NCBI RefSeq assembly: GCF_000682755.1
Contig: NZ_AWFF01000001.1
Coordinates: forward strand, 186,001-250,000
From: Hyphomonas beringensis
GTDB taxonomy: Bacteria; Pseudomonadota; Alphaproteobacteria; Caulobacterales; Hyphomonadaceae
Direction of reading: 5' to 3'
Length of the DNA stretch: 64,000 bases
Part shown: one piece after another, positions 45,447 to 64,000 of the stretch
Position numbering within the stretch: position 1 is the first letter of the stretch
Layout: each line of letters opens with the position of its first letter
Made by a program: the position numbers and the translations under genes
The notes under the pieces: generated by a model
Seen by the model: only the letters and a program-made list of their open reading frames with translations
Database searches by the model: none
What the model was told of the DNA's origin: nothing

Positions 45447-45455
45447 TTGCCCTCC

Positions 45456-45481
45456 CTCCGGAGTTCGCCTGTGCGAGCTCC
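45456..45481. repeat. strong intercistronic hairpin after TBDT 2
   Basis: CCGGAGTTCGC (45456-45466) pairs with GCGAGCTCCGG (45471-45481), one G-U wobble, around a CTGT loop. It lies ten bases after the TBDT stop and 26 bases before the GH3 ATG. No T-run follows. Confidence 0.8.
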
Positions 45482-45507
45482 GGCACTTGTTGAAGAGTGG
45501 ACAAGAG

Positions 45508-47643: not shown

Positions 47644-49345
47644 ACTCGCAGCCATTCTGCCCCTCTGCCTTCTTGCAGCGTGCGCAAAAAGCACCGTTCC
47701 GGCAGAGACCGCCCTGTCCCAGAAGGCGAGCACACTTGTACAGACAGATGCCGGTCCAGTTATTGGCGGCGTATCTGAAAACTCCGCCAAAACCTGGCTG
47801 GGCATTCCCTATGCAAAGCCACCCGTGGGTGAGTTGAGATGGCGCCCCACAGAAGCCGCCGAGCCATGGCAAATGCCGGTGACGGCGCTGGAACATGCCA
47901 ATTGGTGCCCTCAGCTGACGAATGGACTGGATGGCCTGTTCGGCATGCCAAAAGGTGAGCTCCGCGGCGACGAGGATTGTCTTTATCTGGATGTCTATGC
48001 TCCTTCCGGCTCGTCCGCAGACAGCGACCTGCCCGTCATGTTCTGGATCCATGGCGGTTCAAATATCTGGGGCCGCGCGGAACAATATGACGGCTCCAAG
48101 CTCGCCGAGTCTGGTCAGGTCGTGGTCGTGGTTGTTCAATACCGGCTGGGGCCTCTCGGCTGGTTTGCGCACCCCGCCCTTGAGGACGGAATTGCGAACT
48201 TCGCCCTGCTTGATCTGGTCCAGGCGTTGCAATGGACGCATAACAACATCCAGAAATTTGGCGGGAACCCTGACGCCGTCACCCTGTTCGGAGAAAGCGC
48301 TGGCGCAAACAATGTGCTCGGCCTGCTTGCCATGCCGAAGGCTGACGGCCTGTATCGCGCAGCGATCGCGCAGAGTGGGCTCCCCGCTAGCGCGCCCCTG
48401 TCGCTATCCCGGGATGGCCTGGATGACAGAGTAACGGGAGCAGTTCCTGCAGCCCGTTCGTTTACGAATAAAGAAAGCCCCAAGGCAGAAGACCTTCGCA
48501 GCGCGCCGCTGGATAAAATCTTCGCTGAATATGGCTCGGGCCTGACGCCCGCTGTCATCCGCGATGGCACGACTCTTCCCGACATGCCGCTGGATGATGC
48601 CGTAGCGCAGCACCAGTCCGGACGTGGCCTTCCGATCATTATCGGATCCAATCGCGATGAAGCCAAATACCTACTGGCGTTTGACCCCGACATGACCAAA
48701 AAGGCCTTGCTGCTCTTCCCGAAAGCAAAAGACAAAGCCTATTACAATGCCCTGTCATACTACATGACCGGTGTCTGGCGGACTATTGGCGTAACAGATT
48801 TCGCCAAGAAACTGGTCGAGCATGACGCCGGGCCCATACGCACCTATCGGTTTGACTGGGACGAAGAAGCAAAAGTTGGCATGAGCGACCTTGGCCAATT
48901 GATCGGCGCCGCGCATAGTATGGAAATTCCATTTGTCTTCGGACATTTCGAACGCTTTCTTGGCAAGCTGGACAAGCGGCTGTTCACAAAAGGCAATCAG
49001 GAAGGTCGCAAAGCCGTGTCAGAGACAATGATGAGTTGTTGGACCGAATTTGCACATAACGATGCCCCCGGCTCTGTCACTGGAGCCTGCCCGGCCTGGC
49101 CCGCTATTGAAGCGAACGGTCCACGAACGACTATGATCTTCGACACACCCAGAGATGGTGGCAGCCGCATAGAAACAGAGACATTGACCATCTCAAAACT
49201 GACCACCGAAATGAAGGCCGACCCAGCCCTGCAGAATGACAACCGGGCATGCGAGATGTCACAGCGCCTGGTCCAGGCCTTTGGTCTTGTTAGGCTGGAA
49301 ATGGAGAGTGACCTTGAGGGTCTCTGCCCCGCAGATGAATTATAG
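47633..49345 (+). CDS. type-B carboxylesterase lipoprotein
   Basis: About 570 residues. The start is a TTG at 47633, seven bases after AGGAG inside the end of the GH3 gene. It gives a clean lipoprotein signal MAFRLAAILPLCLLAAC (lipid Cys17). The alpha/beta hydrolase shows oxyanion FWIHGG, nucleophile GESAG (Ser222), acid residue in SNRDEAKYLL and His in GAAHSMEIPF. Type-B esterases remove acyl or aryl esters, including feruloyl or acetyl groups on glycans. Context suggests periplasmic removal of ester groups from the block B glycoside. Any upstream ATG in frame (47486) would lack a signal peptide. Confidence 0.9.
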   Translation: MAFRLAAILPLCLLAACAKSTVPAETALSQKASTLVQTDAGPVIGGVSENSAKTWLGIPYAKPPVGELRWRPTEAAEPWQMPVTALEHANWCPQLTNGLDGLFGMPKGELRGDEDCLYLDVYAPSGSSADSDLPVMFWIHGGSNIWGRAEQYDGSKLAESGQVVVVVVQYRLGPLGWFAHPALEDGIANFALLDLVQALQWTHNNIQKFGGNPDAVTLFGESAGANNVLGLLAMPKADGLYRAAIAQSGLPASAPLSLSRDGLDDRVTGAVPAARSFTNKESPKAEDLRSAPLDKIFAEYGSGLTPAVIRDGTTLPDMPLDDAVAQHQSGRGLPIIIGSNRDEAKYLLAFDPDMTKKALLLFPKAKDKAYYNALSYYMTGVWRTIGVTDFAKKLVEHDAGPIRTYRFDWDEEAKVGMSDLGQLIGAAHSMEIPFVFGHFERFLGKLDKRLFTKGNQEGRKAVSETMMSCWTEFAHNDAPGSVTGACPAWPAIEANGPRTTMIFDTPRDGGSRIETETLTISKLTTEMKADPALQNDNRACEMSQRLVQAFGLVRLEMESDLEGLCPADEL

Positions 49346-49428: not shown

Positions 49429-51021
49429 TTAGCGTTTGGGATCTGGCTGCAGGAAGTGCCTCAGATCATTGGAGAACTTCTCTGCCGTTCCGCCCAGATA
49501 GAGCATATGGCCTGACGGATAATCTTCAAAGATGACCCGATCCATGGGAAGATCAGCTGCGTCAAGCTGTGCCCGTGCTTCTGTCGGCGTTGTCACAAGA
49601 TCATAATAGCCAGACGCCACAAAAAGACGCAGAGCGGGATTGCGACGCATCGACCATTTCAGGTCAACCGCAAAACTCTGACCGGGCGCTACACCGCGTC
49701 GCTCCCAGTTCCAACTCGGAAGAAGGTCTTTCCAGTGTATGGCAATGTAAGGCCGCGTCATGTCGACTTCCAGATCCTCATGAAGCATCTGATTAAAGGC
49801 CGCGACAAATCCTGGAACGTACCGCCCCATGGCAGGATCATCCGCAACAGGATCCCCCCCGCTGCCATCAAGGGGCAATGTATAGCGGCTGTCATACATG
49901 CCGACTTCAAGGTTCTTGCCTTGCAGAAGTGTCTTGGCGAACTCCCGCTCGTCAATATGGATGTCATTTCCAATCTGCTCAGCCGCAAGGCCCGTCATGC
50001 CTGCTAGACGGCGAAGAATGGCGTCCCGCTCATCTGGCGGCAAAGTCCCTTCAGCATGCTTCAACAACGCGGCCTGATAGGCATTCTGCGCAAACTCCGT
50101 GGACTGTTGATAGATATCTGCCGGAGAGAGTTCGGCCATATTGCCCAGCCCGTGATAGGCTGCAGTCAGCACCAGCCCAGGAAGGTCACGCGCCAGCTTA
50201 GCCGCCTGCTCCTGTTCACTGAGCTCCGCTACATACCTATTGGACTCAAGCGTCGTACCGAGGAGGATAATACCATCGAGCGTAATGCCACGCATCACAC
50301 CATTATAAATTGGGCTTCCCATTAGCGCCCGTGGCAGAACCGAGGCCCGCTTAGACCCATAACTTTCACCCATAACATATTTTGGGGAGTTCCAGCGGCC
50401 ATGCTCGGTGAGCCAGAGCTCGATGAATTGGGCAACGGAGTCGGCATCCTCATCCACACCCCAAAAGGTTTTCGGGTCGACACCCTCTTCAGCCAGGCTG
50501 AACCCCGTTCCCACAGGATCGATGAAAACGAGATCAGCAACATCCAGCACGCTGTAGGGATTATCCTGTATACCAAAAGGCGGCACATTGGATGGGTTCA
50601 CCTCGGCATCGAGAACAACCCGCTTTGGCCCGATAGCGCCCATGTGAATCCAGAGCGAGGAAGACCCCGGTCCGCCATTGAAAATGAATAGAACCGGGCG
50701 GTCCGGCTGCTGCACATCTGTACGAATGTAGCTGAAGGAAAAGATACGCCCCGTGGGCCTTCCGTTCATATCTGAAAGGACGGTCTCGCCGACAATCGCA
50801 TCATAGGTAATCTTCTCACCCCTCACGGCCAGATCATGGCTCGTGATCTTGCGGTATGTATTTGCAGGTGAGGCGCCGGTAGGATCTGACACGGAACCGT
50901 CAGGCGCCGCTGTCTCGACAGAGGTCGGAATACTGTATTGCTGGGCACTCGCACAATTCGCCAGAATAAGCGCCGATAGGATGGCAGCAGAGCCCGTGAT
51001 TTTTCTAACCGTGCACAACAT
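49429..51021 (-). CDS. S10 serine carboxypeptidase-like enzyme 1, exported
   Basis: 530 residues with a signal (LSALILANCASAQ). S10 hallmarks are intact: NGGPGSSS (residues 115-122, oxyanion and C-terminal recognition), nucleophile GESYG with Ser220, Asp in VASGYYDLVTTP and His in DYPSGHMLY. S10 enzymes, best known as yeast carboxypeptidase Y, remove single C-terminal residues from peptides, usually at acidic pH. Bacterial versions are periplasmic. Second gene of the two-gene run with S10-2, 28 bp apart. AAGGGA precedes the ATG. Confidence 0.92.
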   Translation of the reverse strand: MLCTVRKITGSAAILSALILANCASAQQYSIPTSVETAAPDGSVSDPTGASPANTYRKITSHDLAVRGEKITYDAIVGETVLSDMNGRPTGRIFSFSYIRTDVQQPDRPVLFIFNGGPGSSSLWIHMGAIGPKRVVLDAEVNPSNVPPFGIQDNPYSVLDVADLVFIDPVGTGFSLAEEGVDPKTFWGVDEDADSVAQFIELWLTEHGRWNSPKYVMGESYGSKRASVLPRALMGSPIYNGVMRGITLDGIILLGTTLESNRYVAELSEQEQAAKLARDLPGLVLTAAYHGLGNMAELSPADIYQQSTEFAQNAYQAALLKHAEGTLPPDERDAILRRLAGMTGLAAEQIGNDIHIDEREFAKTLLQGKNLEVGMYDSRYTLPLDGSGGDPVADDPAMGRYVPGFVAAFNQMLHEDLEVDMTRPYIAIHWKDLLPSWNWERRGVAPGQSFAVDLKWSMRRNPALRLFVASGYYDLVTTPTEARAQLDAADLPMDRVIFEDYPSGHMLYLGGTAEKFSNDLRHFLQPDPKR

Positions 51022-51049
51022 ACTTTGTATTCCCTTGCCAAATCGCGGC

Positions 51050-52558
51050 TTATTCTACGTTTGCCCAGTTGCCCTGACCGGTAACCCAGTCACGAATATC
51101 CTGGCCGAAGCGCTCTGCTGAGGTATCCAGAGAATACGCCATGTGGCCGCCTGGATAAAACGACAACCTGACTTGAGAGCCAGGCCAATTTGCCTGTGCC
51201 GCCAGATACTCTGCAGCGCCAACAGTGGTCATAGTGTCATGATATCCGTTGCCGATCAGGACGCGCAGATCGGGGTTGGCCTCAAATGCCTTGTCGATTC
51301 CGACACTGTAATCATATGCACTGAAAGGGGATGAGCCGCCCCAATCCCATGCGCTAAGACCAGCAACCTCGGCAGAAGGTTTGTAAGTCCCCTCAATGTC
51401 GAGCCCGAATGTTTCCGTCATGTATTGCCGGAAGCCATTGTAATACCCGTAAGAAATGACACCAGACGCATCTTGCTTCGCATCGTCACTAATATAACGA
51501 CCGTCAGCGACGCCGAGGACTTTGCCCTCATCAGCTAATAGCGCAAGACGGTATTCATCCTTTTTGACCTTCAGGCCCTTTTCAACAAAATACTCCGCTG
51601 GCAGACCGGTGTAGGACTCAAGCTTAGAGGCGACCGATTGCAGTGCATCGTCACTCAACCGGTTTCCCTGGAAAAGGGCCAGAAGATATTCGGTTTCAGC
51701 AAACTCACTTGCTTCGGCCATGTATTCCTCAACGCTCTTGCCGTGCGTATCGACCTTGCCCTGCTCTACCCCCATTGCGACCAGCGTAGGAAGTGACACG
51801 ACATAGCTGATGATGTTCTGGCGGCGCTGGGCATATTCGATAATGTTGACCGCCTGCCCCATCAGGAAGACTCCTGCCGGAGCATTGACGTCTTCAGCCT
51901 CGGCAAACTGACCCGCCGCCTCTGCCGCGCGCATGGTCCCATAACTTTCACCCAGAATGTAGACCGGCGCTTCCTGCCGGTTATGGCGTGACAGCCAGGC
52001 CGCAACAAAATCTGTGAACTGCTGTGCGTCCGCCTCTACAGAATAATATGCTTCAGGATCCCCCCCCTCTACGACGCGACTGAAGCCTGTAGACGCCGGA
52101 TCGAAAAGCACGATGTCTGCAACATCCAGTGGGGAGTACGGATTATCGACCAGAGTATAAGCGTCGACGGACGCGCTCAAATCCTCTGGCACATGCACAC
52201 GCTTCGGCCCTACGGCGCCCATGTGGAGGTAAAGCGATGCTGAGATCGGCCCGCCATTAAAGACAAACAAGACCGGACGAGGCGGCGCATCAGCCTTCGG
52301 CTCAGCCACATAGGAGACGGATACCAGCTCGACACCGGGCCGCCCCTCCTTGCCAGAAATGTCATAGGTTTCGAGAGCGGCCTCATAGCTGACCTGCTCG
52401 CCACCGAACACGCCTTCGCCTGTCACGCGCATTTCTTGCGTAAATGGCGCCGCAACAGAAACAGCTCTGGACTTGTTGGCGGGCGCGATACCCGTAGAAC
52501 ACCCTCCTAGTGCCAGGAGCGCAATTGCGCATACAGCCGTGCTCGCAGCAAATTTCAT
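51050..52558 (-). CDS. S10 serine carboxypeptidase-like enzyme 2, lipoprotein
   Basis: 502 residues with a lipobox ALGGC (Cys20). Nucleophile GESYGT (Ser205), Asp in GNGYHDTMTTVG and His in YPGGHMAY are kept. The glycine-rich motif is altered to NGGPISAS (residues 101-108): the Gly after Pro, normally GPGSSS, is Ile. This changes the loop next to the oxyanion hole and probably the S1' pocket. It is first in the leftward two-gene run with S10-1. Confidence 0.9.
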   Translation of the reverse strand: MKFAASTAVCAIALLALGGCSTGIAPANKSRAVSVAAPFTQEMRVTGEGVFGGEQVSYEAALETYDISGKEGRPGVELVSVSYVAEPKADAPPRPVLFVFNGGPISASLYLHMGAVGPKRVHVPEDLSASVDAYTLVDNPYSPLDVADIVLFDPASTGFSRVVEGGDPEAYYSVEADAQQFTDFVAAWLSRHNRQEAPVYILGESYGTMRAAEAAGQFAEAEDVNAPAGVFLMGQAVNIIEYAQRRQNIISYVVSLPTLVAMGVEQGKVDTHGKSVEEYMAEASEFAETEYLLALFQGNRLSDDALQSVASKLESYTGLPAEYFVEKGLKVKKDEYRLALLADEGKVLGVADGRYISDDAKQDASGVISYGYYNGFRQYMTETFGLDIEGTYKPSAEVAGLSAWDWGGSSPFSAYDYSVGIDKAFEANPDLRVLIGNGYHDTMTTVGAAEYLAAQANWPGSQVRLSFYPGGHMAYSLDTSAERFGQDIRDWVTGQGNWANVE

Positions 52559-52916
52559 GATGTCTCCGCCTTATTTCACTGCCTCATGCCATGGATTTTA
52601 TGCCGGCGCATGTTCTGCTCTGCAGCCGGCGCCCAAGGCTTGTCTATGTTCATGATGCTATGAGGCCGAGAGAGGTATTTTTATACCTTATGCGAGACGC
52701 CCCCCGCTTGTTGCGCAATTATTATTCCCTACCGGGGCGCATGGGCATTCCGTTCTCATATTCACGGAAACGAATGGAAAGGAGCAGAAAGACAATCGCG
52801 CGCCCGCTGTAATAGAATATACATCAAAAAGACAAAACACATATAGATATTGCCATTTTTCGCATAATGACGGATTATGTCTTCCCGATCAGATAATATC
52901 AATCATAGAGCCACCC
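52559..52916. other. 358-bp divergent promoter region of S10 genes and lrp-type gene 2
   Basis: No gene seen. It contains the motif TTGCGCAATTATTATTCCC (52711-52729), whose core recurs upstream of TBDT 3, and the palindrome CATAAT-GACGG-ATTATG (52863-52879) near the regulator start. Confidence 0.6.
52863..52879. promoter_or_regulatory. Lrp-like palindrome before regulator 2
   Basis: CATAATGACGGATTATG is a 6-5-6 inverted repeat, A/T-rich and about the size of an Lrp/AsnC half-site pair. It is 37 bp upstream of the regulator ATG. Confidence 0.5.
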
Positions 52917-53399
52917 ATGACCGAAGAACTCTCCTCATTTGACATCAAGATTCTCGAACAGCTTCAGAAAGACTGTTCTGTCTCAACTGTTGAGTTGGCT
53001 GAAATTGTCGGCCTGTCACAGTCGCCGTGCTGGCGCCGACTGCAAAGGCTTAAGGAAGAAGGCTACATCAAGCAACAAGTCGCCATTCTCGACAGCGAGC
53101 GGCTTGGCTATGGCCTGCACATCTTCGCATACCTGAAAGTGTCACGCTTGTCGGAAAAGGACCGCGCATCCTTCAGTCGCAAGGTGCAGAACACCCCCGA
53201 AATTCTGGAATGCTATTCCATCTTTGGAGAGATGGACATCATGATGAAAATCCAGGCTAAATCCATGAAATGGTATCAGGACTTTCTGATGAACTTCCTG
53301 ATGAACCTGCCGGGCGTCGAGAATGTGAACTCCACAGCGACACTGGGTGAAATCAAGTGTACGACGGCCGTCCCTGTTCGGGGCAATATGGCTTACTAG
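52917..53399 (+). CDS. Lrp/AsnC family transcriptional regulator 2
   Basis: 160 residues. HTH: SFDIKILEQLQKDCSVSTVE and GLSQSPCWRRLQRLKEEGYI; C-terminal RAM domain with ILECYSIFGEMDIMMKIQ. It is similar in plan to regulator 1 (both have CWRR after the HTH loop) but clearly diverged. Divergent from the S10-1/S10-2 pair and convergent with the amidohydrolase/S10-3 pair, so block C is its likely regulon. Confidence 0.92.
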   Translation: MTEELSSFDIKILEQLQKDCSVSTVELAEIVGLSQSPCWRRLQRLKEEGYIKQQVAILDSERLGYGLHIFAYLKVSRLSEKDRASFSRKVQNTPEILECYSIFGEMDIMMKIQAKSMKWYQDFLMNFLMNLPGVENVNSTATLGEIKCTTAVPVRGNMAY

Positions 53400-53438
53400 G
53401 TTAAGCCAGGAACGCGGCCGCAAGCACAACACTGCCGC

Positions 53439-53464
53439 AAGGCGCCTCTAGTGAGAGGCGCCTT
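53439..53464. terminator. perfect 11-bp hairpin between convergent genes
   Basis: AAGGCGCCTCT (53439-53449) and AGAGGCGCCTT (53454-53464) form a perfect stem with an AGTG loop. It overlaps the amidohydrolase stop codon, and the + strand continues TAATTT. A terminator of moderate strength for both genes is likely. Confidence 0.6.
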
Positions 53465-55490
53465 TAATTTCGTCCGGTTTCGAAGCAAATGGCTCAATCG
53501 ATAGAGCCTGATAGATTTCTTCCGGGAAGTATACATCACCATTCTTTACCACCATGCGTGGGGTCTTGATAACGTTGAAGGTTTCCAGAGGATTGGAGGG
53601 CAACAGGACAAAGTCAGCGTATTTACCCGCCTCAATCGTGCCGAGATCGTCGCCATAACCGAGATATTCAGCAGGCTGCAAAACCCCAATGCGCAATACA
53701 TCTTCGGCAGGTATACCAGCGATCCTGTAAAGCTCCAGCTCGCGATGAACAGTGAAGCCTGTTCCGTCATCTGTGCCAGGCAAAATTACGATGCCCGCAT
53801 CATACATGCGCTGCAAAGTATCCATGAGAACCTGGAAGCTGTCTCTGTACGCCTTGTCCGCGGCCTCGTCCTCCAGTGTGACAAATGTGCGCTTGCGATA
53901 CCGCTGATATGAGATCGGCATGTGGTCCAGATAGTCCACATCTCCCGGAGGGGTCTCACCCGCCCGGCTCATCATCAGCCGTTCAAGTATGACAGCTGTA
54001 GGATCTATGCCGACATTATTTTCCTGCATCAGGGTCAGGGTTTCCTGAACCTTGTCAGAGTCCAGATCCAGCCCGGCTGCACGCGCCATACCCGTGAGAC
54101 GTAACGGTGTCCGCGTATCCTCATCCGGTGTCAGCAACCAACCCAGCATCAACTGGTTGATATGCGTTATTTCGTCATAGCCAGCACGGATCATGGCGTT
54201 TGCATTCGTGAATGCCGGAACGTGGCCGATCACACGCATACCGCGGCCATGGGATTTCTTCGCCATGGCAGGCACCCAAGCCGGATTCATGGAATTATAG
54301 ATCTTGATGAACGTATAGCCTCGCTCAGCATACCAATCGACGGCATCGAGGGCCTCCTGCTCACTCGCGACGACAATGCCGTAACGCGCTGAATAGGGGC
54401 TGCGCCCCTCAATGAAGCCAGCTGGGGTAATGCGGGGTCCGATCAGTGTCCCGTCATCAAGATCTTTCATGAGCTGTTGAAGAAACTCATTATTGTTGCC
54501 CATATCACGCGTGGATGTGACGCCCGCCGCAATATAATATAGGCCTGAGCTCAATGAGGCGTGTGAGTGCATGTCCCACATGCCGGGCATGATCGTGCCG
54601 CCTGCCCCATTGAACACCGTGACATCATCGGGATAGGTCTTGCCTGGCTGATAAGGCTCAATCGCCTCGATGCGCTCGTCTTTCACCAGTATAGTTGAGG
54701 GCGCGCTGATGCCTGCTGTGCGTGGGTCCAGTATATGGACATTCACGATGGCATATGGAGCGTCATAGGTATGACGCAGTTGCTGGGCCAAATCCTTGTA
54801 GCGCTGCGTTTGAAGCTCACGCGCCAATTCCATGAGAGAATTGGCCAAAGCCACATAGCCGTCCTTCACAACAACTGAGGCCTCAGAGAATTGAGAGAAA
54901 AACTTGCCCTCCTCGTCAAGCGCGATCAAGGTGGGGGCAAGGTCAATACCTGACAGCCTGTACACTGACAGAACGGCCTTCTTGCCGTCCGCTGCCAGGG
55001 TGACGTCCTCGACCTTCTCCAGCTTCATCTCACCGGTCGGAATGACAGGCAGTCTATGGTCTGCGTCTGCAAGCAGTGCCTTCGCGTAAACATAGTTTGC
55101 CCATGGACTGCCATCATTAACAGCATAAAGAACATCTCCCTGAACATCAGCATGCCCCTGGTCGGCCTGGCTATTCCAGATTGCCACGCCGTCTGACAGC
55201 TTGAAGCTTTCCTCGACATCCCCACCCATGAGAGACTTGCCCACAATAGACCATTCTAGCGGCACATTGTGTGGCCCCATAATGATCTGCTCAGTGTGCT
55301 TTGGGCCCCTGCCATTATCGTCCATGTAATATTCTACTGACGTCGAAGCTCCATCTTCGATGACCTTCAGATACCCGATCTCTTCATCATTCTGAACAAG
55401 ACTATAGGAATAGGTTTCCTGTGCTGCAGCCGTCAGGCCTGAGCAGACCAGGCCACAGGCGGCAACCAAAGCACCAGCGATATACTTCAT
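53448..55490 (-). CDS. exported amidohydrolase with a long N-terminal domain
   Basis: 680 residues, signal ending LTAAAQ. The first ~235 residues form a separate beta-rich domain (YSYSLVQNDEEIGYLKVIED, LPVIPTGEMKLEKV) not recognised. From about residue 250 comes a complete amidohydrolase barrel: WDMHSHAS, FIKIYNS (bridging Lys), IGHVPA, ITHINQ and LPGTDDGTG. Related secreted members hydrolyse dipeptides or cyclic amides. The ATG overlaps the end of S10-3 by 4 bp (ATGA), so the two enzymes are co-translated and likely act on the same peptides. Confidence 0.85.
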   Translation of the reverse strand: MKYIAGALVAACGLVCSGLTAAAQETYSYSLVQNDEEIGYLKVIEDGASTSVEYYMDDNGRGPKHTEQIIMGPHNVPLEWSIVGKSLMGGDVEESFKLSDGVAIWNSQADQGHADVQGDVLYAVNDGSPWANYVYAKALLADADHRLPVIPTGEMKLEKVEDVTLAADGKKAVLSVYRLSGIDLAPTLIALDEEGKFFSQFSEASVVVKDGYVALANSLMELARELQTQRYKDLAQQLRHTYDAPYAIVNVHILDPRTAGISAPSTILVKDERIEAIEPYQPGKTYPDDVTVFNGAGGTIMPGMWDMHSHASLSSGLYYIAAGVTSTRDMGNNNEFLQQLMKDLDDGTLIGPRITPAGFIEGRSPYSARYGIVVASEQEALDAVDWYAERGYTFIKIYNSMNPAWVPAMAKKSHGRGMRVIGHVPAFTNANAMIRAGYDEITHINQLMLGWLLTPDEDTRTPLRLTGMARAAGLDLDSDKVQETLTLMQENNVGIDPTAVILERLMMSRAGETPPGDVDYLDHMPISYQRYRKRTFVTLEDEAADKAYRDSFQVLMDTLQRMYDAGIVILPGTDDGTGFTVHRELELYRIAGIPAEDVLRIGVLQPAEYLGYGDDLGTIEAGKYADFVLLPSNPLETFNVIKTPRMVVKNGDVYFPEEIYQALSIEPFASKPDEIKGASH

Positions 55491-57004
55491 TCTTTACCCT
55501 CAAAATCCTTTGACGAAGGCAGGGAAGCGTGCGTCAAAAACCTGTAAATCCTGTTCGAAAAGCGCGCCCTGCCGTCCACCTCATCAAAGGGAGAATGCCC
55601 AGTCGGCATCTTGATCAGGTCAACACGCTCTTCGGGCAGACCCGCATGGCTGAGCGCGTATTGTGTGGCCAATACCGGCGTAGCGAGATCACGGTAACCG
55701 CCAAACACCAATAGCGAGACATTGTCATGGTCCTGCAGGAAGTCTCCCAACAGAGGCGCTCCATTGGTATAAAATAGACCGCTATTCTGGCTGGACCAGC
55801 CCCAGGCAAAGTTCGCATCCAGGTTAAGGGACCAGTATCCATCAAGGCCTGCCAGGCCAGTTGCCTGCTCCAGATAAGAAGCAATGTCTTCCGCGATAAT
55901 CTTGTTGGAGCTGCCGAGTCCAAGTGACGGGTCATTTGCGGCAGCCGGCCTATCCGAATTTTCCGGTTTCTTCACCGGGCGAACAATCGCCGTATTGAGG
56001 CGGCTCACCAGCATGCCCTGATCTGCCATGACGTTTTCAAGAAACATCTGCGTATCGATACGCAATTTCGACGTGAGGATATCCTGCTTGGCAAGACCGG
56101 TCATTGCAGCCAACTTCGCCGCTATATCCTCAGCCGTTTGAGGACTTAAAAGATCGCCCTGCTGCAAGGCGACGAGATACTCTGTTTCAGCAAATTCACG
56201 GGCGACATTCCATACTTCGCCTTCGCTATCGACTTCAAGGTGAGACTTGCCCAAACGCCAGGCAGTAGCTGCCATGGTTGGCAGAGCAAAAACATAGCCG
56301 AGATCGCTCTCACTCCCACTGGCATCCAGCATGGGTGAGACAAGGACAAGACCCGCGACTTTCACGTCCCCTATCGACGGCATCATGTTTGCCAGCCGGA
56401 AGCCGCCATAGCTCTGCCCTGTGATGAAGACAGGCGCGTTTTCCCGGTCGTGCTCTGCCAGCCAAGCATGAATATATCTGCTGACAGCCTCCGCATCGCC
56501 ATCAATGCTTAGATACGGGCTCTTGCCATCAGGATCTGAGGCGCGGCTAAAGCCAGTTTCGACCGGGTCGATGAAGACCAAGTCGGCTGCCCTAAGAAGA
56601 GTGTCAGGATTCTCCGGGAATACGCCATCTGCGCCAGTCCCCTTCTCCGGACGACTACGCGGGCCAAGAGCGAAGTGGAGAGGAGAAGAAGAGGCCCCAG
56701 GCCCGCCATTGAACAGGAACATGACGGGCCGTGCGGCGCCCGCCTCGCAGGATTGACACAGATAGGATGTACCGGAAATCGTAGTGGCATGATCGTCACT
56801 CGTAATTTCGAGCGCGAAGCTGTCCCAATGCACCACATAAGAAAGCGGGTCTGCGCCGTAAGTATCAGAGACATGGAATGTCTTGTCGGTTTGCACATGC
56901 TCCCAAACGGCAGGCGCGGGCTCTGCTGCGGCATGCAAGGCCGCTGCACCAAATGCAGATGCCAGCGCAGCAGCGAAGAGAGACTTTCGACAAAACATGC
57001 TCAT
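55487..57004 (-). CDS. S10 serine carboxypeptidase-like enzyme 3, exported
   Basis: About 505 residues with a signal ending AALHAAAE. Glycine motif NGGPGASS (99-106). The nucleophile motif is GQSYG (Ser198) where S10 enzymes have GESYG: the Glu that contributes to C-terminal carboxylate binding in carboxypeptidase Y is replaced by Gln. Asp in GGYRDLATPVLAT and His in PTGHSPFDE complete the triad. It is first in the two-gene run with the amidohydrolase. Start: ATG 57004 is five bases after GAGG; 57007 and 57028 are alternatives. Confidence 0.9.
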   Translation of the reverse strand: MSMFCRKSLFAAALASAFGAAALHAAAEPAPAVWEHVQTDKTFHVSDTYGADPLSYVVHWDSFALEITSDDHATTISGTSYLCQSCEAGAARPVMFLFNGGPGASSSPLHFALGPRSRPEKGTGADGVFPENPDTLLRAADLVFIDPVETGFSRASDPDGKSPYLSIDGDAEAVSRYIHAWLAEHDRENAPVFITGQSYGGFRLANMMPSIGDVKVAGLVLVSPMLDASGSESDLGYVFALPTMAATAWRLGKSHLEVDSEGEVWNVAREFAETEYLVALQQGDLLSPQTAEDIAAKLAAMTGLAKQDILTSKLRIDTQMFLENVMADQGMLVSRLNTAIVRPVKKPENSDRPAAANDPSLGLGSSNKIIAEDIASYLEQATGLAGLDGYWSLNLDANFAWGWSSQNSGLFYTNGAPLLGDFLQDHDNVSLLVFGGYRDLATPVLATQYALSHAGLPEERVDLIKMPTGHSPFDEVDGRARFSNRIYRFLTHASLPSSKDFEGKE

Positions 57005-57198
57005 CATATCCTCATTTTCAGCCAACATGCCCTATCTTTCCTATGCCTATTTCCACGCCCTGGATGATAGAACCGAAAAAATCATGCTGGAGGGCGGTAT
57101 TCCCTGAATGATCCATTCTGCGAGCCTGTGATTCCTGCATGTCTTCACTGTCGACTAGCCTCAGTAAAGAGTTAGACTCGGTAGCGTAATCGAGAGAG

Positions 57199-58461
57199 AT
57201 GATCATGCTGCTGTCCCGCCGAAACTATTTGCTCTTGTCTGCTGCGGCGCTTGCTGGGTCGGCCTCCTGCAAATCTGCCTCCGCTTTAGAGACGCCGCTG
57301 CCTACGGCGCGCAAGAGTGATGTAAAACTGCCTGATCGCAATGACTTTCGCCTTGGCGATACAGTCTATCTCGATGCCGGATCACAGCACCCGATCTCAA
57401 ACATGGCACGCGCATCGCTGGAAGCTTATACCGACCACCGGCAAACCCTTGCACCTGACGACGACTATTCCCTGAACAGCGACGCGGCGATTGAAAAATT
57501 CGCGCGCCTGGTCAACGCAGACCCCGACGAGATCACTTTTGTCCAGAGCACGACAACTGGAGAACAAATGATCATCAGGTCACTCGGCCTACCTGAGAAA
57601 GGCGCAAAAGTCGTCACCGATACGCTGCACTTTTTCGGGTCTTTTCCGCTCTATGAAGAGCTGGAGAAGCAGGGCTGCGACGTAACTTGGGTATATGCAA
57701 AAGACGGCCGCATTGACATGGCTGACATGGACAAGGCCATCACGCCGGGAACTCGGCTCGTCAGCCTGTCACTTGTATCTACACTGAATGGATTCGAGCA
57801 TGACCTCAAGGCTGTGTGTGACCTAGCCCACTCGCGCGGTGCGCTTGTCTATGCAGACATCATCCATGCGGCAGGCTGTGTCCCAGTGGACCTGCATGCC
57901 AGCGGCGTCGATTTCGCTTGCTGTGCCAGCTACAAATGGCTGATGGGAGATTTCGGACTAGGCTTTATCTATGCACGGCGTAATGCCATGAAGCACCTGC
58001 AGCGTACAAATTACGGCTATTATGGCATCAGCCAATTCACCTCTCACGTCTATCCGTATGACACGCCGGGAGACACAGTAGCTGATTATGCTTTTGCAGA
58101 TGATGCTGCCGGATGGTTTGCGCTGGGAACTTATTCCCACACGACCGTGGCAATGCTGAATGCCGCTCTGGACCTGATCCTGGATCTTGGAGTGGAGACG
58201 ATCCAGAACCATGCCATCGGACTGACGACCAGGCTGAAAGAAGGCCTTCTTTCCAGAGGGTACAATCTCATCACTCCGCCAGAAGCGACGACACCTCTTG
58301 TAGCGTGCGCTTATGAAGGTGCGCGTGAGAATCTGAAAGAGCCGATGAAGAAAGCCGGTATCGTAACGACACTGTCTACCAACCGCTTTCGTCCGAGTGT
58401 CTCCATCTTCAACACGGAAGATGATGTGGACATGTTCCTCGAAACCGTCGGAACAGCCTGA
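57199..58461 (+). CDS. Tat-exported class V aminotransferase fold PLP enzyme
   Basis: 420 residues. The N-terminus SRRNYLLLSAAALAGSASC carries a twin-arginine motif (S-R-R-x-Y-L), hydrophobic core and possible cleavage after SASA. The mature part is a fold-type I, class V PLP enzyme: Asp220 in VYADIIHAAG and Lys246 in ASYKWLMG should bind PLP. Relatives include cysteine desulfurases and isopenicillin N epimerase-like proteins, so epimerase or lyase action on amino acids or peptides is possible; the reaction is not decided. Divergent from the S10-3/amidohydrolase pair. ATG 57205 is equally plausible, spaced six bases from GAGAG. Confidence 0.88.
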   Translation: MIMLLSRRNYLLLSAAALAGSASCKSASALETPLPTARKSDVKLPDRNDFRLGDTVYLDAGSQHPISNMARASLEAYTDHRQTLAPDDDYSLNSDAAIEKFARLVNADPDEITFVQSTTTGEQMIIRSLGLPEKGAKVVTDTLHFFGSFPLYEELEKQGCDVTWVYAKDGRIDMADMDKAITPGTRLVSLSLVSTLNGFEHDLKAVCDLAHSRGALVYADIIHAAGCVPVDLHASGVDFACCASYKWLMGDFGLGFIYARRNAMKHLQRTNYGYYGISQFTSHVYPYDTPGDTVADYAFADDAAGWFALGTYSHTTVAMLNAALDLILDLGVETIQNHAIGLTTRLKEGLLSRGYNLITPPEATTPLVACAYEGARENLKEPMKKAGIVTTLSTNRFRPSVSIFNTEDDVDMFLETVGTA

Positions 58462-58486
58462 TTGGAACAGTCACAGGGTTCACGAA

Positions 58487-59443
58487 TTAGCCCGGCTCCT
58501 GAGACATGCTCATCCAGACATGGCCAGCTGCGGCGATGTCCTGAATGATGTGACCCAAGGATTTGTAGATTGTAATGTCTGCATCGGATGTACGGCCGTC
58601 TACCTTGCTCAGAAGAACCTCACCGATCTCTCCCAGAAGATGGCTGGCCTGTATGGCACCGCTTGCAAGAGCGTGACGATATTCCGACCCTTGAGCCTCA
58701 ACAGAGGGCCGGGAGTCGGCAAAGTAACGAGACCGGCTCACCAGCGCATCATCCACCTCGCGCGGGCCGTCAAAACTTGAGCCGACAACATTCACATGTG
58801 TGCCCGGCTTTACCATATCGGCCAGCAAGACGGGTAGATCCGAAGACGTCACTGTACAAATGATATCCGCCACGCCTACCGCCTGTTCAACATCATGATG
58901 AGCCGTCGCGCGTATGCCCATCTCGTCTTCTACCTTTGCGGCTAATGCTGAGGCCTTTTCCGGCGTTCTCCCCCAGATGCGAATCTCATCCAGATCGCGA
59001 ACTTCCGGCAAGGCCCTGGCATGGTGAAGTGCTTGCTCACCCGTGCCCAGAATTGCCAGAACCTTACTATCCTCGCGGGCCAGAACATCCGTTGCCATGG
59101 CACTGGCACTCGCGGTACGGCGCGACGTGATCTCTCCTGCTTCCGCTATGCAGGCGGGCGCACATGTTCGGGGGTCAAAAACGACCACGACACCTTGGTG
59201 GGACGGAATATCATTCTGAGCGGAGTGCGGCGTTACGCAGATCAGCTTGGAACCAAACGCTGCGCTCGTGCCCATCGTACCAGCCATGATCCCGAACATG
59301 CGGCCTTCATCCAGTGGCAAGATCTGCCTCAGCATCTGCTCCGTCGTGCCACCGGACAAGCGTGCCATGGCCGCGCGCATAACAGAGATGCAATCATTGT
59401 AACTGAGATGCGCTTTGATGTCGTCTGCACTTACAACAAACAT
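58487..59443 (-). CDS. ornithine cyclodeaminase/mu-crystallin family oxidoreductase
   Basis: 318 residues. The NAD-binding motif AILGTGEQALHHARAL is followed by WGRTPEKA, and the family end YKSLGHIIQDIA. The N-terminal domain has the Arg in EITSRRTASASA used for the substrate carboxylate. Members include ornithine cyclodeaminase, alanine dehydrogenase and Delta1-pyrroline-2-carboxylate/ketimine reductases that work on imino acids from D-proline or hydroxyproline. It lies last in the leftward run permease, TBDT 3, this gene, so catabolism of an imported amino acid is likely. It has no signal and is cytoplasmic. Confidence 0.9.
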   Translation of the reverse strand: MFVVSADDIKAHLSYNDCISVMRAAMARLSGGTTEQMLRQILPLDEGRMFGIMAGTMGTSAAFGSKLICVTPHSAQNDIPSHQGVVVVFDPRTCAPACIAEAGEITSRRTASASAMATDVLAREDSKVLAILGTGEQALHHARALPEVRDLDEIRIWGRTPEKASALAAKVEDEMGIRATAHHDVEQAVGVADIICTVTSSDLPVLLADMVKPGTHVNVVGSSFDGPREVDDALVSRSRYFADSRPSVEAQGSEYRHALASGAIQASHLLGEIGEVLLSKVDGRTSDADITIYKSLGHIIQDIAAAGHVWMSMSQEPG

Positions 59444-59471
59444 GGAGTTTTACTCTGCTGTCTGAAATTAA

Positions 59472-59517
59472 CTTGCGCCGATGGCCACAGACCAAAGCCT
59501 GCGAACATCGGCGCAAG
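59472..59517. repeat. strong intercistronic hairpin after TBDT 3
   Basis: CTTGCGCCGATG (59472-59483) pairs perfectly with CATCGGCGCAAG (59506-59517), loop of 22 bases. It lies about 95 bp after the TBDT stop and 29 bp before the cyclodeaminase start on the minus strand. The minus strand continues TTAATTTC, so partial termination is possible. Confidence 0.8.
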
Positions 59518-59611
59518 ACCGGAGGGGGAGATAGCAAACAGACATTTACAGACGCTGTTCGGAGGTACCCCAGCACTGCGTAGCATGTAAGTTATCTCCC
59601 CAAGCCGAACA

Positions 59612-62600
59612 TCAGAACTTGTAGTTCACACCGGCGAAGTAACGACGGCCCAGAATATCACCATAGGACAGGGTCGGGTAAGACGGCTGCTCATCGGTAA
59701 AGTTCGTGATACCTGCGCGGATCGCCAGACCATTGTCGAAATCATAGATAGCAGAGATATCGTGGGTGATGTTACTGTCGATGAACGGGTTCGGATTATT
59801 TTCGATCGTCGCCCCTTGCTCAGCGCTGACATTGTCCAGATAGTTCAACTGATAAGAAACGATCAGAGGCCCGGTTGCATAGCGGGCGTTGAAACGGCCC
59901 GTCCAATCAGGATCATCAACCGTGTTATCGCTGCGATTGAAGGTCGTGCCGGTAACTGATGTGCTCAACTCTGACACGTGTGTTGCCTCAAGGCCAAAGG
60001 ACATCTGACCAGGCGCACCATTCCAGACAGCATCAAGGTCGAAATCATAGTTCGCGTAATATACTTCGCCCTTGAAGATGATTTGACCGGCATTGAAGGT
60101 CGTCGTTCGCCCCGTCACCACCGTGCCCGCCGGGTTCGTGCCGTCTGCCGCCTGAAGGCGGGTAAAGGCAGAACACACCTCATCAGAGGGGCTAGCGCTG
60201 TCATAACAGGCGGCCATGAAGTCTTCCGTCGTGAAGGCCGAAAGACCGTCTGTCAGGTCGATTTCGATGCGGTCCGCAGACAGAGTCAGACCCGGGACTA
60301 GGAAGTGGTCAAATACGATACCGTAGGTGACCGTATCAGAGACCTCGTTGCGCAGCTCCGGGTTACCACCGACAGCAACGCTCGTGATCGAGAAGTTCTC
60401 GGCCGGATCCTGGAAGGATGCCAGATCACCATATTGAGGATTAGCAGCCCATTCGGCTTCACAATTGGCGCGGCGGATAGACGGGTTCGGCCCCGCATCG
60501 ATCCGATCAGCGTCACATGGGTCATTCCCCGCATTGGAGATCGTCGTGTTGGCGGGTGCAAACAACTGCTCAAGCGTCGGTGCACGGAAGTTACGGCTCT
60601 TCGTGGCACGAATCGTCACGCCATCTGTCACTTCCCAGCGCGTGCCTACACTCCAGACAGATTCCTCGCCTGCGATGGAGTTGTCGACAAAACGGTATGT
60701 ACCATTCAGCTCAAGAGCCTGAGCGAAGGGCAGAGTTACATCACCGCCCAGAATAGGCACCAGAACCTCAGCTGACAGCTCGTTCGTATTGTAGTCGCCG
60801 GATGTCGGCACTTCCTGCGTGCCGCCAGAGAGAAGGCCAAGCTGGTTGGCTTCATAAGGCGTGAAGCTGGCTTCCTCACGGCGATGCTCATAGGCCAGCA
60901 CCATGTCGATTGCGCCAGCCGGAAGCTGATAAACTTCCGTACCGATGGTGGCCAGGAAATCGAACTGCTTGTTCTTGTAGTCCATGCCGGACATCACAGA
61001 GACATAGCGAGATGCAGCTTCGCTGATATTGCCGGCACCGAACGGGTTCAGCGGGGCACAGTTCGGGTCGTCATTCGTCGTGTCAGAATCTGCATTGATG
61101 GCACAAACAATGTTGCCGGCGCCGTCATCTACAGCCCGAACGGCATTGTTGAACTTGGCGATATCCGCATCCCAAACGGACTGTGAACCGCTGACTTCAG
61201 CATAGCTGCCTGATACGGTCCAGTAGAAGTTCCTGTCGGCGGCATCAAAGTCACCTTCCAGGCCAACGAGACCGCGCCAGACTTCTGTTTCGTTCTTCTG
61301 AACATTGGATGGGAACGTATCATTGTAGAAGTTCCGAGACAGCCACAGAGGCGCACCAGCCGCAAAAGATGGGCTTGCGGCGGAAAGTGACGCAATCGCA
61401 TCATCCGTCAGGAAGGGATTGCTGCGAGTGAATAGAATTGCACCAAGCGCAGGATCTGTCTGGTTCAGAACCGTACGCGCATATCCCTGTGGAACGCTCT
61501 CAGCATCCGTCTTGGAGTAAAGAAGCTCCGTATTGAGACGGATACCCGGCGTAAGGTCATAATGGCCAATCAGGTTACCGCTCAAGCGGTCAACACCTGT
61601 GCGCAGGCCTGCAAGATCGCTATAGCGCGTGCCCTGGCCACCTTCCGCGAACGGGATCCCCAGGACATCACCCGGATCGTAAGAGATGATCGAGCCATCA
61701 GGCGCAAACTGGATAGGCGTACCATCCAGCGTCGTCTGGAACATTTCCAGCGGCGCCGGGACGCTGTAGACAACACCGTTGCCATTGAAGTTCCAAAAAT
61801 AGGCCGGGATGACTTCCCTCAAGGACGGAATGCCGTCATTGGGCCCCGTATCATCCGGGTTGCCCTGCGTGATGCGGGAGCGATTGGACGTCGGGAAATC
61901 CGAGAAGCGGACAAGCGGCGTGCTGGAGCCTTCGATATTGATCGCGACATTACCGCGGTCATTGTCGAAGTTCTGCCCCGCAGTTACGCGCCAGGACGTC
62001 TGCTCGTAATTGTTGAGTTCGGTGTCACCATACTGAAAGTCCAGTTCGACGCCTTCGAAGTCATCGCGCAGGATGTAGTTTACAACACCGGCAATCGCGT
62101 CAGAGCCATATACAGCGGCGCCACCAGCCTGCACGACTTCGATACGGTCAATCAGGCCCGTCGGGATGATATTGGCATCAACCTGAGCATCACCGAGACC
62201 GCTGGAGGTCGTAACGAAACGACGGCCATTAACCAACGTCAGAGTGCGCCCGGCTCCCAGACCGAACAATTCGGCATATTGCTGGCCGTCGCCACTACTG
62301 CTGCCGTCGCCTGCTGCCTGGTTATATTGCGGCACCAGAGAAGTTATCTGGTTGAGGGCGTCTGCAGCGCTGACAAGTCCGCGCTCGGCGAAGACCTCGT
62401 CACCGATGCTCGTCACCGGGGCAGACGTTTCCGCGACGCTGCGGCGGATACGGGATCCGGTTACAACAACAGCATCCATGGTCGCCGTTTCATCTGCGGC
62501 CTGCTCGGGAACTGACAAGGTGTCACTTTCCTGGGCGTTTGCCGACGATGCGACGAGAACAGGCACAAGGGCCGCAGCGGCACAGGTGCTAAGCAGATTT

Positions 62601-62623
62601 TTGATAACAACGGCACGTTTCAT
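59612..62623 (-). CDS. TonB-dependent outer-membrane receptor 3 (large, ~1000 residues)
   Basis: About 1003 residues with a signal ending SSANAQ. Same subfamily as the block A receptor: VVVTGSRIRRSVAET, LGAGRTLTLVNGRRF, DRIEVVQAGGAAVYGSDAIA; it ends with a barrel strand (RRYFAGVNYKF). Located between an APC permease gene and the cyclodeaminase gene, all leftward, so it probably imports peptides or amino-acid derivatives. ATG 62623 (MKRAVV) is used; ATG 62635 would add four residues. Confidence 0.94.
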   Translation of the reverse strand: MKRAVVIKNLLSTCAAAALVPVLVASSANAQESDTLSVPEQAADETATMDAVVVTGSRIRRSVAETSAPVTSIGDEVFAERGLVSAADALNQITSLVPQYNQAAGDGSSSGDGQQYAELFGLGAGRTLTLVNGRRFVTTSSGLGDAQVDANIIPTGLIDRIEVVQAGGAAVYGSDAIAGVVNYILRDDFEGVELDFQYGDTELNNYEQTSWRVTAGQNFDNDRGNVAINIEGSSTPLVRFSDFPTSNRSRITQGNPDDTGPNDGIPSLREVIPAYFWNFNGNGVVYSVPAPLEMFQTTLDGTPIQFAPDGSIISYDPGDVLGIPFAEGGQGTRYSDLAGLRTGVDRLSGNLIGHYDLTPGIRLNTELLYSKTDAESVPQGYARTVLNQTDPALGAILFTRSNPFLTDDAIASLSAASPSFAAGAPLWLSRNFYNDTFPSNVQKNETEVWRGLVGLEGDFDAADRNFYWTVSGSYAEVSGSQSVWDADIAKFNNAVRAVDDGAGNIVCAINADSDTTNDDPNCAPLNPFGAGNISEAASRYVSVMSGMDYKNKQFDFLATIGTEVYQLPAGAIDMVLAYEHRREEASFTPYEANQLGLLSGGTQEVPTSGDYNTNELSAEVLVPILGGDVTLPFAQALELNGTYRFVDNSIAGEESVWSVGTRWEVTDGVTIRATKSRNFRAPTLEQLFAPANTTISNAGNDPCDADRIDAGPNPSIRRANCEAEWAANPQYGDLASFQDPAENFSITSVAVGGNPELRNEVSDTVTYGIVFDHFLVPGLTLSADRIEIDLTDGLSAFTTEDFMAACYDSASPSDEVCSAFTRLQAADGTNPAGTVVTGRTTTFNAGQIIFKGEVYYANYDFDLDAVWNGAPGQMSFGLEATHVSELSTSVTGTTFNRSDNTVDDPDWTGRFNARYATGPLIVSYQLNYLDNVSAEQGATIENNPNPFIDSNITHDISAIYDFDNGLAIRAGITNFTDEQPSYPTLSYGDILGRRYFAGVNYKF

Positions 62624-62723
62624 TGAGGACCCCATTTTCCTGCACGACTTTTGTTGGCGCACCAACTTTGTCGGTCGGCGCAAATTTCTCTCTGAGAACA
62701 CGCTAGAAACAGGATGACGAAAA

Positions 62724-62775
62724 TTTTATCCTATTTGCATGACTTGCCTGCTGCGTAGCGCAACAATTATTCTCC
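62724..62775. promoter_or_regulatory. promoter region of TBDT 3 with motifs shared with other promoters
   Basis: TTTTATCCTATTT (62724-62736) matches TTTTATCCCATTT at 38365-38377 in 12 of 13 bases. GCGCAACAATTATTCTCC (62758-62775) matches the core of 52713-52729 at most positions. Both lie 100-155 bp upstream of the TBDT ATG in the TBDT/permease spacer. Confidence 0.35.
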
Positions 62776-62808
62776 AGGCCTATTCCCATGAATATTCATT
62801 TCAGATGG

Positions 62809-64000
62809 TCAGGAGACTGGTGCAGCCTTGGACGCACGGCCCTGGCGAAACACGATGAAAGCGTAATAGGCGCAGCCCAAAAGTGACCAGACCAGCAACA
62901 GAGCATAAGGTCGCCAATCGGCTGACCAGCCTGCTACGATTATGAATATGCCAAGAACTATGCCCAACCCGGACAGAAAGAAAAGAAGTGTTCGGGAGGG
63001 ACGGAATTTCGAGGCTTCATGCAGGTCCGGCCTCTTTACGAGCAGGGAGATCGTGGCGAGGCAGGTCGCGGAATATTTGAGAATGGTCGGGATATTCACC
63101 GCCAGAAACAAAAAGACCAGATTGCCTGGCAACAACAATCCCGCACAGCACATGACAAATGTGCATAAAATAGCCGCGCGCGGCACACCATGCCGGCCAT
63201 CCACCGTCGCCAGACGGGCGGGCAACATACCCTCCCTTGCCATGGCGTAGAGGAATCGGGACATGATGATGAAGGTCGCGTTCACTGAGCTGCCGATCGC
63301 AACAATGGCGCTCAGAACGATCAGGTAACGCCCCCAGTCGCCAAAGACTGCCATGCCGGCATCCAGCAGAGGGGCTTCGGAAGCGGCCAGCTTTTCCGGC
63401 CCCAGCACACCGAGCGCAGCAAACGCGACCATGAAGTAGGTCGCCGCTGTCAGCAGAATGGAAATCGTGATCCCTAGCGGAATTGTGCGAGCGGGGTTCT
63501 TTACCTCACCACCAACTTCCGTGGCACTCTCAATCCCCAGAAAAAGGGAAATCAGAAGCGGAATGGCTGCGAAAATGCCCACCACCCCTTCACTCATAAA
63601 GGGGTGAAAGCGGGAGATCTCAATATCCGGAACACTGCCGACAGTGAACAGCACGCAAGTGGCCAACAAAACGAGTAGCATGATGAACTGGCTCTTTGCG
63701 GCAGCAGATACACCCATCAGGTTCACCAGCATGACGAAGACCAGAAGGCCAAACATGGTGGGTTTCAGAGGCAGCGCGAAAATGCTGCTGACATAGGAGA
63801 CAAGCACCATGGTGAGCACGATCATGGCTGACGTGCTGCCAGCGATACGCAACCAGCTGATAAAGAAGCCCAGAAACGGGTGGACGAAACGGCGCGGCCA
63901 CTCAAAGGACGCTCCCGTCACGGGAACCGCAGCCCCCATAAACGCATAAATTATGGCGTAAACCACCATCGGGATCATCGCCAGCAACATGGCAACCAAC
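62809..64000 (-). CDS. APC-family amino acid permease, C-terminal part (start outside the window)
   Basis: At least 397 residues are visible; the N-terminus runs off the right edge. About ten transmembrane helices remain. The conserved APC segment LGIESATEVGGEVKNPARTI gives the family, as does the helix IMSRFLYAMAREGMLPARLA. The family imports amino acids or exchanges them. It is upstream of TBDT 3 in the same direction, 185 bp apart, and fits block C as inner-membrane importer. Confidence 0.9.
   Translation of the reverse strand, partial: LVAMLLAMIPMVVYAIIYAFMGAAVPVTGASFEWPRRFVHPFLGFFISWLRIAGSTSAMIVLTMVLVSYVSSIFALPLKPTMFGLLVFVMLVNLMGVSAAAKSQFIMLLVLLATCVLFTVGSVPDIEISRFHPFMSEGVVGIFAAIPLLISLFLGIESATEVGGEVKNPARTIPLGITISILLTAATYFMVAFAALGVLGPEKLAASEAPLLDAGMAVFGDWGRYLIVLSAIVAIGSSVNATFIIMSRFLYAMAREGMLPARLATVDGRHGVPRAAILCTFVMCCAGLLLPGNLVFLFLAVNIPTILKYSATCLATISLLVKRPDLHEASKFRPSRTLLFFLSGLGIVLGIFIIVAGWSADWRPYALLLVWSLLGCAYYAFIVFRQGRASKAAPVS

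Follow-up and report, generated by a model that had tools for sequence, protein, structure and literature searches.

A conserved block of exported peptidase, PLP enzyme and transport genes in Hyphomonas beringensis, a candidate TonB-linked cassette for peptides or peptide-like compounds

The gene block and its conservation within Hyphomonas

The genome of Hyphomonas beringensis (GCF_000682755.1; 3.8 Mb on 119 contigs) contains a block of about eleven neighbouring genes, which encodes three peptidases of the S10 family, an exported pyridoxal phosphate (PLP) enzyme, a TonB-dependent receptor (TBDT) and an amino acid permease, and which is a real conserved unit. It was found in a stretch of 64,000 nucleotides, referred to here as the window (contig NZ_AWFF01000001.1, or C1; positions C1:186001-250000). 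A preliminary description of this DNA had placed nine genes, three of them of the S10 family, within 15 kb, and a family search confirmed all nine at their positions. Two further genes lie past the window and belong to the conserved block as well.

At one end, both on the reverse strand, lie S10a (49429..51021; 530 amino acids (aa), exported, PF00450 61 bits, triad S220/D474/H505) and S10b (51050..52558; 502 aa, with a lipoprotein-like signal, LGGC, recognised by eye, and NGGPI in place of NGGPG). They are followed by a forward gene for a regulator of the Lrp/AsnC family (52917..53399; 160 aa, Pfam HTH_24 and AsnC_trans_reg), and by two reverse-strand genes that share 4 bases, encoding an exported amidohydrolase (53448..55490; 680 aa) and the third S10 paralogue, S10c (55487..57028; 513 aa, exported, with GQSYG in place of GESYG). 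S10b and S10c both score above the Pfam cut-off for Peptidase_S10. A divergent promoter region (57029..57198) separates S10c from the forward gene for a class V PLP enzyme of the twin-arginine translocation (Tat) type (57199..58461; 420 aa). The remaining genes are on the reverse strand and encode a protein of the ornithine cyclodeaminase (OCD)/mu-crystallin family (58487..59443; 318 aa), the TBDT (59612..62701; 1029 aa, with plug and barrel domains) and an APC amino acid permease (448 aa), of which 62809..64000 falls within the window; the whole permease gene, C1:248809-250155, extends 155 bases beyond it. Just outside the window, on the same strand as the permease, are the genes for a class I aminotransferase (C1:250133-251347; 404 aa) and for an M61-like (M61/M1-type) peptidase (C1:251527-253173; 548 aa, with HELLH and, by eye, a lipobox).

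The PLP enzyme was found in eight of the 42 genomes of the genus, that of H. beringensis included, the relatives being 67-72% identical to it. All seven PLP-bearing relatives share one gene order (Lrp, amidohydrolase, S10c, PLP enzyme, S10a, OCD, S10b, TBDT, APC, aminotransferase, M61); six have all eleven genes, and the contig of the seventh, only 12.5 kb long and cut by contig ends, holds the middle seven. Among the loci compared, it is only in the window that S10a and S10b lie beyond the Lrp gene, on its far side. Past the first M61-like gene, six of the seven relatives carry a second, diverged one (28-31%), and the window genome has a deacetylase-family gene there. The Lrp/AsnC regulator is 85-92% identical in the genus relatives.

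The block is near all-or-none in the genus. Orthologues of S10a (at least 62%) occur in exactly the eight PLP-bearing genomes, matches in the other genomes of the 42 reaching at most 41%; one S10a match, in genome G028, has an internal stop. The TBDT (70-80%) and the amidohydrolase (at least 59%) have orthologues in the same eight genomes and in one more, G007, out of the 42. Fisher tests on the distribution in the genus gave 8e-9 and 8e-8, kinship being ignored. In G007, pieces of the block (amidohydrolase, TBDT, Lrp, part of S10c, APC, aminotransferase and M61) are found where two contigs break off, and this genome probably has the block too; that it carries a partial system was rejected, since its pieces stop at the contig ends.

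Recurrence in other Proteobacteria

A scan of named genomes gave 237 confirmed relatives of the PLP enzyme, of which the best 80 were analysed together with flanks of up to 10 kb per side. Seven of these 80 loci are shorter than 15 kb, and L045, L047, L048, L049, L050 and L114 are shared with the set of genus relatives. The loci span the Alpha-, Beta- and Gammaproteobacteria, with hosts that include Hyphomonadaceae, Asticcacaulis, Nitrospirillum, Sphingomonas, Novosphingobium, Sphingobium and Erythrobacteraceae, as well as Duganella, Roseateles, Dyella and Pseudidiomarina, and the families of the block recur in them in shuffled order. Clustering of open reading frames (ORFs) placed S10 in 63 of the 80 loci (64 by tblastn), the amidohydrolase in 54, APC in 51, the TBDT in 45, the class I aminotransferase in 36, Lrp in 35, OCD in 34, M61 in 32 and the deaminase family RidA in 24; seven or eight of these nine other families are present in 25 loci. 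Whether the genes are co-conserved in relatives, a point on which the preliminary description had made its proposal depend, is answered by the single order in seven of seven relatives and by this recurrence in three proteobacterial classes.

Across the whole class few genomes have the PLP enzyme (at E 1e-60 it was found in three of 385, and the other two come from one genus), and a Novosphingobium megaplasmid bears a shuffled set with three S10 genes. Families and classes are intermixed in the PLP tree, 12 of whose 76 rows are close Sphingobium kin. This scattered presence, together with the mixed tree, suggests transfer.

The shuffled order outside the Hyphomonadaceae, and the few families held by some loci, would be in line with unrelated catabolic genes that chance or shared transfer has loosely grouped. 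Such a grouping is strongly disfavoured, and in our view highly improbable, given the one order and the near all-or-none presence in the genus and the return of the same families in distant lineages. It also agrees poorly with four 20-kb control stretches flanking such blocks, which hold none of the block's S10, amidohydrolase, OCD, APC or aminotransferase genes; one of these has a 26% paralogue of the PLP enzyme and one has other TBDTs. In 11 short loci of distant PLP paralogues (25-29%), which reach about 1.5 kb per side or less, none of the other block genes was found.

Two lineages have peculiarities of their own. The Nitrospirillum cassettes (L055-L059) have tandem OCD genes, two Lrp genes and a gene of the S9 prolyl oligopeptidase type; the one S9 protein that was scored reached 114 of 900 bits for Dpp5 and 94 of 400 bits for lasso isopeptidase. 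In the Sphingobium group (L094, L096, L099, L112, L115, L116, L118-L121) PLP relatives without S10 stand near a Tat-type class I aminotransferase, which in L120 scores 327 of 500 bits against the PtaA model. Six related loci of the group have, in addition, a flavin amine oxidase of the Tat type and another RidA; export signals were recognised by eye in most of these proteins. The S10-less loci of this group perhaps represent another periplasmic amino acid pathway.

The S10 peptidases, the PLP enzyme and RidA

Three of the six S10-family matches in the genome lie inside the block; under uniform placement the chance of finding three of six within 7.6 kb is about 2.2e-4. The remaining three stand apart from other block genes, one of them near a DgcN/DgcA module. 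In an alignment of the three window sequences with 154 of 157 relatives (three short ones were dropped) the Ser, Asp, His triad is intact in 157 of 157 rows. NGGP is likewise present in all rows, followed by Gly in 134 and by Ile in 23; the rows with NGGPI are all of the S10b type, the window S10b among them. The second position of GESYG is Glu in 142 rows, Gln in 14, all of the S10c type, and Gly in one. Because a phmmer search of S10a against PDB gave no match, its fold was modelled with AlphaFold (pLDDT 86). The ten best PDB fold matches are all S10 enzymes (cathepsin A, carboxypeptidase Y; E 9e-14 to 1e-11, TM 0.49-0.53 on the query), with the next match at 8e-9; this fold evidence covers the S10a model only.

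Clustered S10 genes number three in 39 of the 80 loci, two in 16, one in eight and none in 17, and tblastn adds one (L093), which leaves 16 loci without S10. A FastTree phylogeny of 157 S10 sequences contains six large clades, each with at most one copy per locus; the clades were cut at an arbitrary depth, and clade c has a support of only 0.70. One of the 157 clustered ORFs best matches the PLP reference and may be fused or a wrong reading. The window S10a, S10b and S10c fall in three of the six clades, most loci of Sphingomonas and of Novosphingobium/Erythrobacteraceae use the other three, and Nitrospirillum mixes them. The diverged S10 enzymes of the preliminary description therefore belong to separate old clades with intact catalytic residues. 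They are old, separate enzymes that are retained as a set, and their being kept one each argues for differing specificities. Local tandem duplication was rejected, since no large clade occurs more than once per locus.

The PLP enzyme carries a twin-arginine signal, recognised by eye, and RR occurs within the first 45 residues in 65 of 76 clustered relatives, a set that includes truncated sequences. Its model (pLDDT 91) has the fold of SufS/CsdA, with TM 0.73-0.77 among the 50 matches listed. The catalytic-Cys loop is missing, and none of 44 sequences selected from the 80 loci has a Cys there, on which grounds identity as a cysteine desulfurase was rejected. The stretch around the Schiff-base lysine, Lys246, best matches kynureninase (PDB 1qz9; 2.1e-13, the next match, a desulfurase, following at 8.1e-8), with which the enzyme shares a D-x-x-H and a Tyr-Lys pattern. 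The whole-protein models of kynureninase (TIGR01814; 61.5 of 246.4 bits) and of PvdN (NF051467; 41 of 650 bits) were not reached at their cut-offs. Residues H144, T195, N197, D220, H223, Y245, K246, H283 and R398 are invariant in 44 of 44 sequences; Arg398 presumably binds a carboxylate, as in class V enzymes.

The invariance of Arg398, and the S10 clades kept one each, which suggest a fixed substrate, would also suit a block that dismantles one specific modified peptide or natural product, such as a siderophore or another bioactive peptide. The PLP enzyme would then remove or alter a head group with a free amino group and carboxylate, and the peptidases would clear the rest. A precedent is found in PvdN and PtaA, exported PLP enzymes that tailor the peptide siderophore pyoverdine in the periplasm (PMC6206403). 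We consider this explanation unlikely, in view of the low PvdN score; moreover, no synthetase or iron regulator is among the ten families found in at least 20 of the 80 loci, where the TBDT could be of any kind, and the Lrp and APC proteins indicate amino acids.

The amidohydrolase combines an N-terminal extension of about 240 aa with a metal-dependent hydrolase of the Xaa-Pro dipeptidase kind, although the NCBIfam equivalog NF051886 for that enzyme is not reached (76 of 500 bits). Its metal site (H-x-H, Lys, His, His, Asp; in the window copy H308, H310, K396, H423, H443 and D574) is kept in 40 of 40 rows longer than 500 aa, these being the window and 39 of 56 relatives after 17 shorter ones were dropped. 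In six of the seven genus relatives a C-terminal RidA domain is fused to the amidohydrolase, with a frame of 806-831 residues open through both domains. The fusion also occurs in L044, L046, L051 and L052 (Henriciella, Ponticaulis), and in L044 (5709-8285) both domains were confirmed by Pfam (PF01042 80.9 bits, cut-off 27.3). A hydrophobic tail that follows RidA in the L044 fusion suggests an inner-membrane anchor.

By tblastn, RidA accompanies 36 of the 80 PLP loci, against 24 by ORF clustering, which hid the fused domain. A RidA gene directly adjoins a PLP gene in 17 of the 23 loci where both could be placed (Sphingobium, Nitrospirillum, Duganella); in Duganella that PLP gene is a second copy (40%). 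A signal peptide or lipobox was seen by eye at the start of 22 of the 24 clustered RidA proteins (exceptions: L061 and L066), and the partner in L094 scores 81 bits for PF01042 against the same cut-off. On a plasmid of Variovorax boronicumulans (L136:13845-15643) the genes for a diverged Tat-type PLP enzyme and for RidA lie 5 bases apart, the RidA having a lipobox, and no block peptidase was found within the 29 kb read. The neighbours of this pair include benzoylformate decarboxylase and aromatic-ring cleavage genes, a context which hints that the PLP substrate may be an aryl-substituted amino acid. RidA proteins are described as deaminating enamines and imines such as the 2-aminoacrylate that comes from PLP enzymes (PMC5619798). 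Combined with the pairing and fusion, this chemistry suggests an imine or enamine as the periplasmic product of the PLP enzyme. Some lineages, that of the window included, would manage without the RidA helper.

The OCD protein has its nearest solved structures in mu-crystallin (a ketimine reductase), pyrroline-2-carboxylate reductase and iminosuccinate reductase. In 33 of 33 rows (the window and 32 of 34 relatives) Ser fills the column that seems, by eye, to correspond to the catalytic Asp (D228) of the Pseudomonas ornithine cyclodeaminase. Both observations tend to disfavour a true cyclodeaminase; the earlier assignment to the OCD family stands, but the protein looks more like an imine or ketimine reductase of the mu-crystallin type. 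For the class I aminotransferase no specific match was found among solved structures. Taken together, the OCD protein, the aminotransferase, the APC permease and the Lrp regulator indicate amino acids as end products.

The divergent S10c/PLP promoter contains TTCCTATGCC, which is exact in eight of 11 loci and has one mismatch in the other three, while the surrounding region has drifted; its word score is 30, against 11-12 in shuffled controls. With at most one mismatch, no copy of TTCCTATGCC occurs in any other block promoter, and an operator common to all block promoters was thus not found. Copies with one mismatch do occur within the S10a, S10b and APC genes, and also beyond the block. The word search took in adjoining coding sequence, and the other words that it gave were set aside.

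Proposed route and related systems

A TBDT, periplasmic degradative enzymes, an inner-membrane transporter and a regulator are conserved together, as in TonB-linked nutrient utilisation. On balance, and with considerable reserve, we favour the view that the block is co-inherited and serves, as a TonB-linked cassette, the utilisation of peptides or peptide-like compounds, with a periplasmic PLP step that releases an imine or enamine; its predicted gene content supports peptide scavenging. The TBDT would carry the substrate across the outer membrane, after which a periplasmic M61-like aminopeptidase, the three non-redundant S10 carboxypeptidases and the prolidase-type amidohydrolase, with activities predicted from families and residues, would free amino acids. 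The Tat-exported kynureninase-like PLP enzyme would act on one particular freed amino acid to give an imine or enamine. Hydrolysis of this product would, in many lineages, fall to a separate exported RidA or to the RidA domain of the amidohydrolase. The products would be imported by the APC permease and finished by the class I aminotransferase and the mu-crystallin-type imine reductase, and the Lrp protein would sense an amino acid and control the block.

We propose more tentatively that a new kynureninase-like subfamily, coupled to an exported RidA, cleaves or deaminates a peptide-derived amino acid in the periplasm before import. The periplasm is an unusual site for amino acid breakdown. If the proposal holds, amino acid catabolism would start outside the inner membrane, and a testable role would fall to many unassigned genes for S10 enzymes, class V PLP enzymes and exported RidA proteins, among others in Sphingomonas, Novosphingobium and Hyphomonas. 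The preliminary description had envisaged a complete peptide-scavenging route; its co-conserved block has stood and has gained further peptidases (M61-like, and S9 in five Nitrospirillum loci), whereas peptide uptake by the TBDT and the specificity of the S10 enzymes stay conjectural.

Several observations weigh against the cassette reading. None or one of the other cassette families was found in 16 of the 80 loci (ORF clusters), and the 16 loci that lack S10 by either method, 13 of them from the Sphingobium group, imply that these peptidases are not indispensable to the PLP enzyme. The substrate of the TBDT is not readable from sequence. The Variovorax PLP relative (45%) differs, by eye, at the positions of T195 and H223. 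The PLP, OCD and amidohydrolase proteins reach no NCBIfam cut-off among the models listed, which makes the PLP enzyme a member of an unnamed subfamily. Finally, the amidohydrolases of the window, G029 and G007 are without RidA and their blocks contain none, so the block does not depend on the deaminase step in every lineage; in the window genome a single PF01042 protein was found, a distant one in which no signal peptide was recognised by eye.

On the M61 side, beyond the deacetylase-family gene, the block adjoins a D-glutamate catabolism module (C1:254877-263128, or L008:4877-13128) with genes for a serine hydrolase, Amidohydro_3, DgcN (444 of 480 bits), DgcA (405 bits against a cut-off of 400 for the N-acetyl-D-Glu racemase model) and a TBDT. 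The genome has three DgcN matches. This adjacency, and the S10 gene close to the second DgcN/DgcA module, would fit a block that recycles D-amino-acid or cell-wall peptides, as the D- or epimerised residues suggested in the preliminary description would imply. We judge that to be quite improbable: DgcN (E 1e-60) occurs in 10 of the 42 genus genomes, of which only G000, G007 and G021 have the block, and the 80 loci contain one match to DgcA, two to the serine hydrolase and none to DgcN or Amidohydro_3. S10 enzymes, moreover, would be expected to prefer L residues. Given its different distribution in the genus, the module was rejected as a member of the block. The second module (C54:125001-145000; L132) also has Amidohydro_3, a serine hydrolase and a TBDT piece, and neighbours that comprise, besides the S10 gene, two more amidohydrolases, an M3 peptidase and an RPE65-family gene.

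The left flank of the block (window 43155-49345) holds TBDT, GH3 glycosidase and carboxylesterase genes. As called, their frames overlap at 45349-45446 and 47486-47643, and the true starts are probably further in. Neither the GH3 nor the carboxylesterase gene was matched in the stretches that were retrieved from the genus relatives.

In literature searches aimed at this combination, covering open PMC papers, none of the papers listed describes the cassette by title. Sugar-uptake loci based on TonB receptors are well known, and loci of the PUL/CUT type are TonB-linked nutrient loci. The utilisation cassette that we propose resembles these, and also the GlcNAc1A ong cluster of Pseudoalteromonas, in its TonB receptor, periplasmic hydrolases, inner-membrane importer, regulator and cytoplasmic finishing enzymes. 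For the ong cluster two TonB-dependent receptors are described, and deamination is placed in the cytoplasm (PMC9537276); unlike there, the hydrolases of the block are peptidases, and its PLP enzyme and RidA partner would act in the periplasm.

The PLP enzyme shares its overall fold with the SufS/CsdA cysteine desulfurases, whose catalytic-Cys loop it is missing, and its catalytic stretch with kynureninase (PDB 1qz9), from which it differs in being exported and in falling short of the whole-protein model; no kynurenine-pathway gene is among the ten families found in at least 20 of the 80 loci. Export in the folded state via Tat is common to PvdN, PtaA and the PLP enzyme of the block (PMC6206403). 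There the two enzymes serve biosynthetic tailoring, whereas the PLP enzyme is set among peptidases and uptake genes. The known part of the system is a TonB-linked utilisation locus, and the new element is a peptidase set with exported PLP and RidA chemistry.

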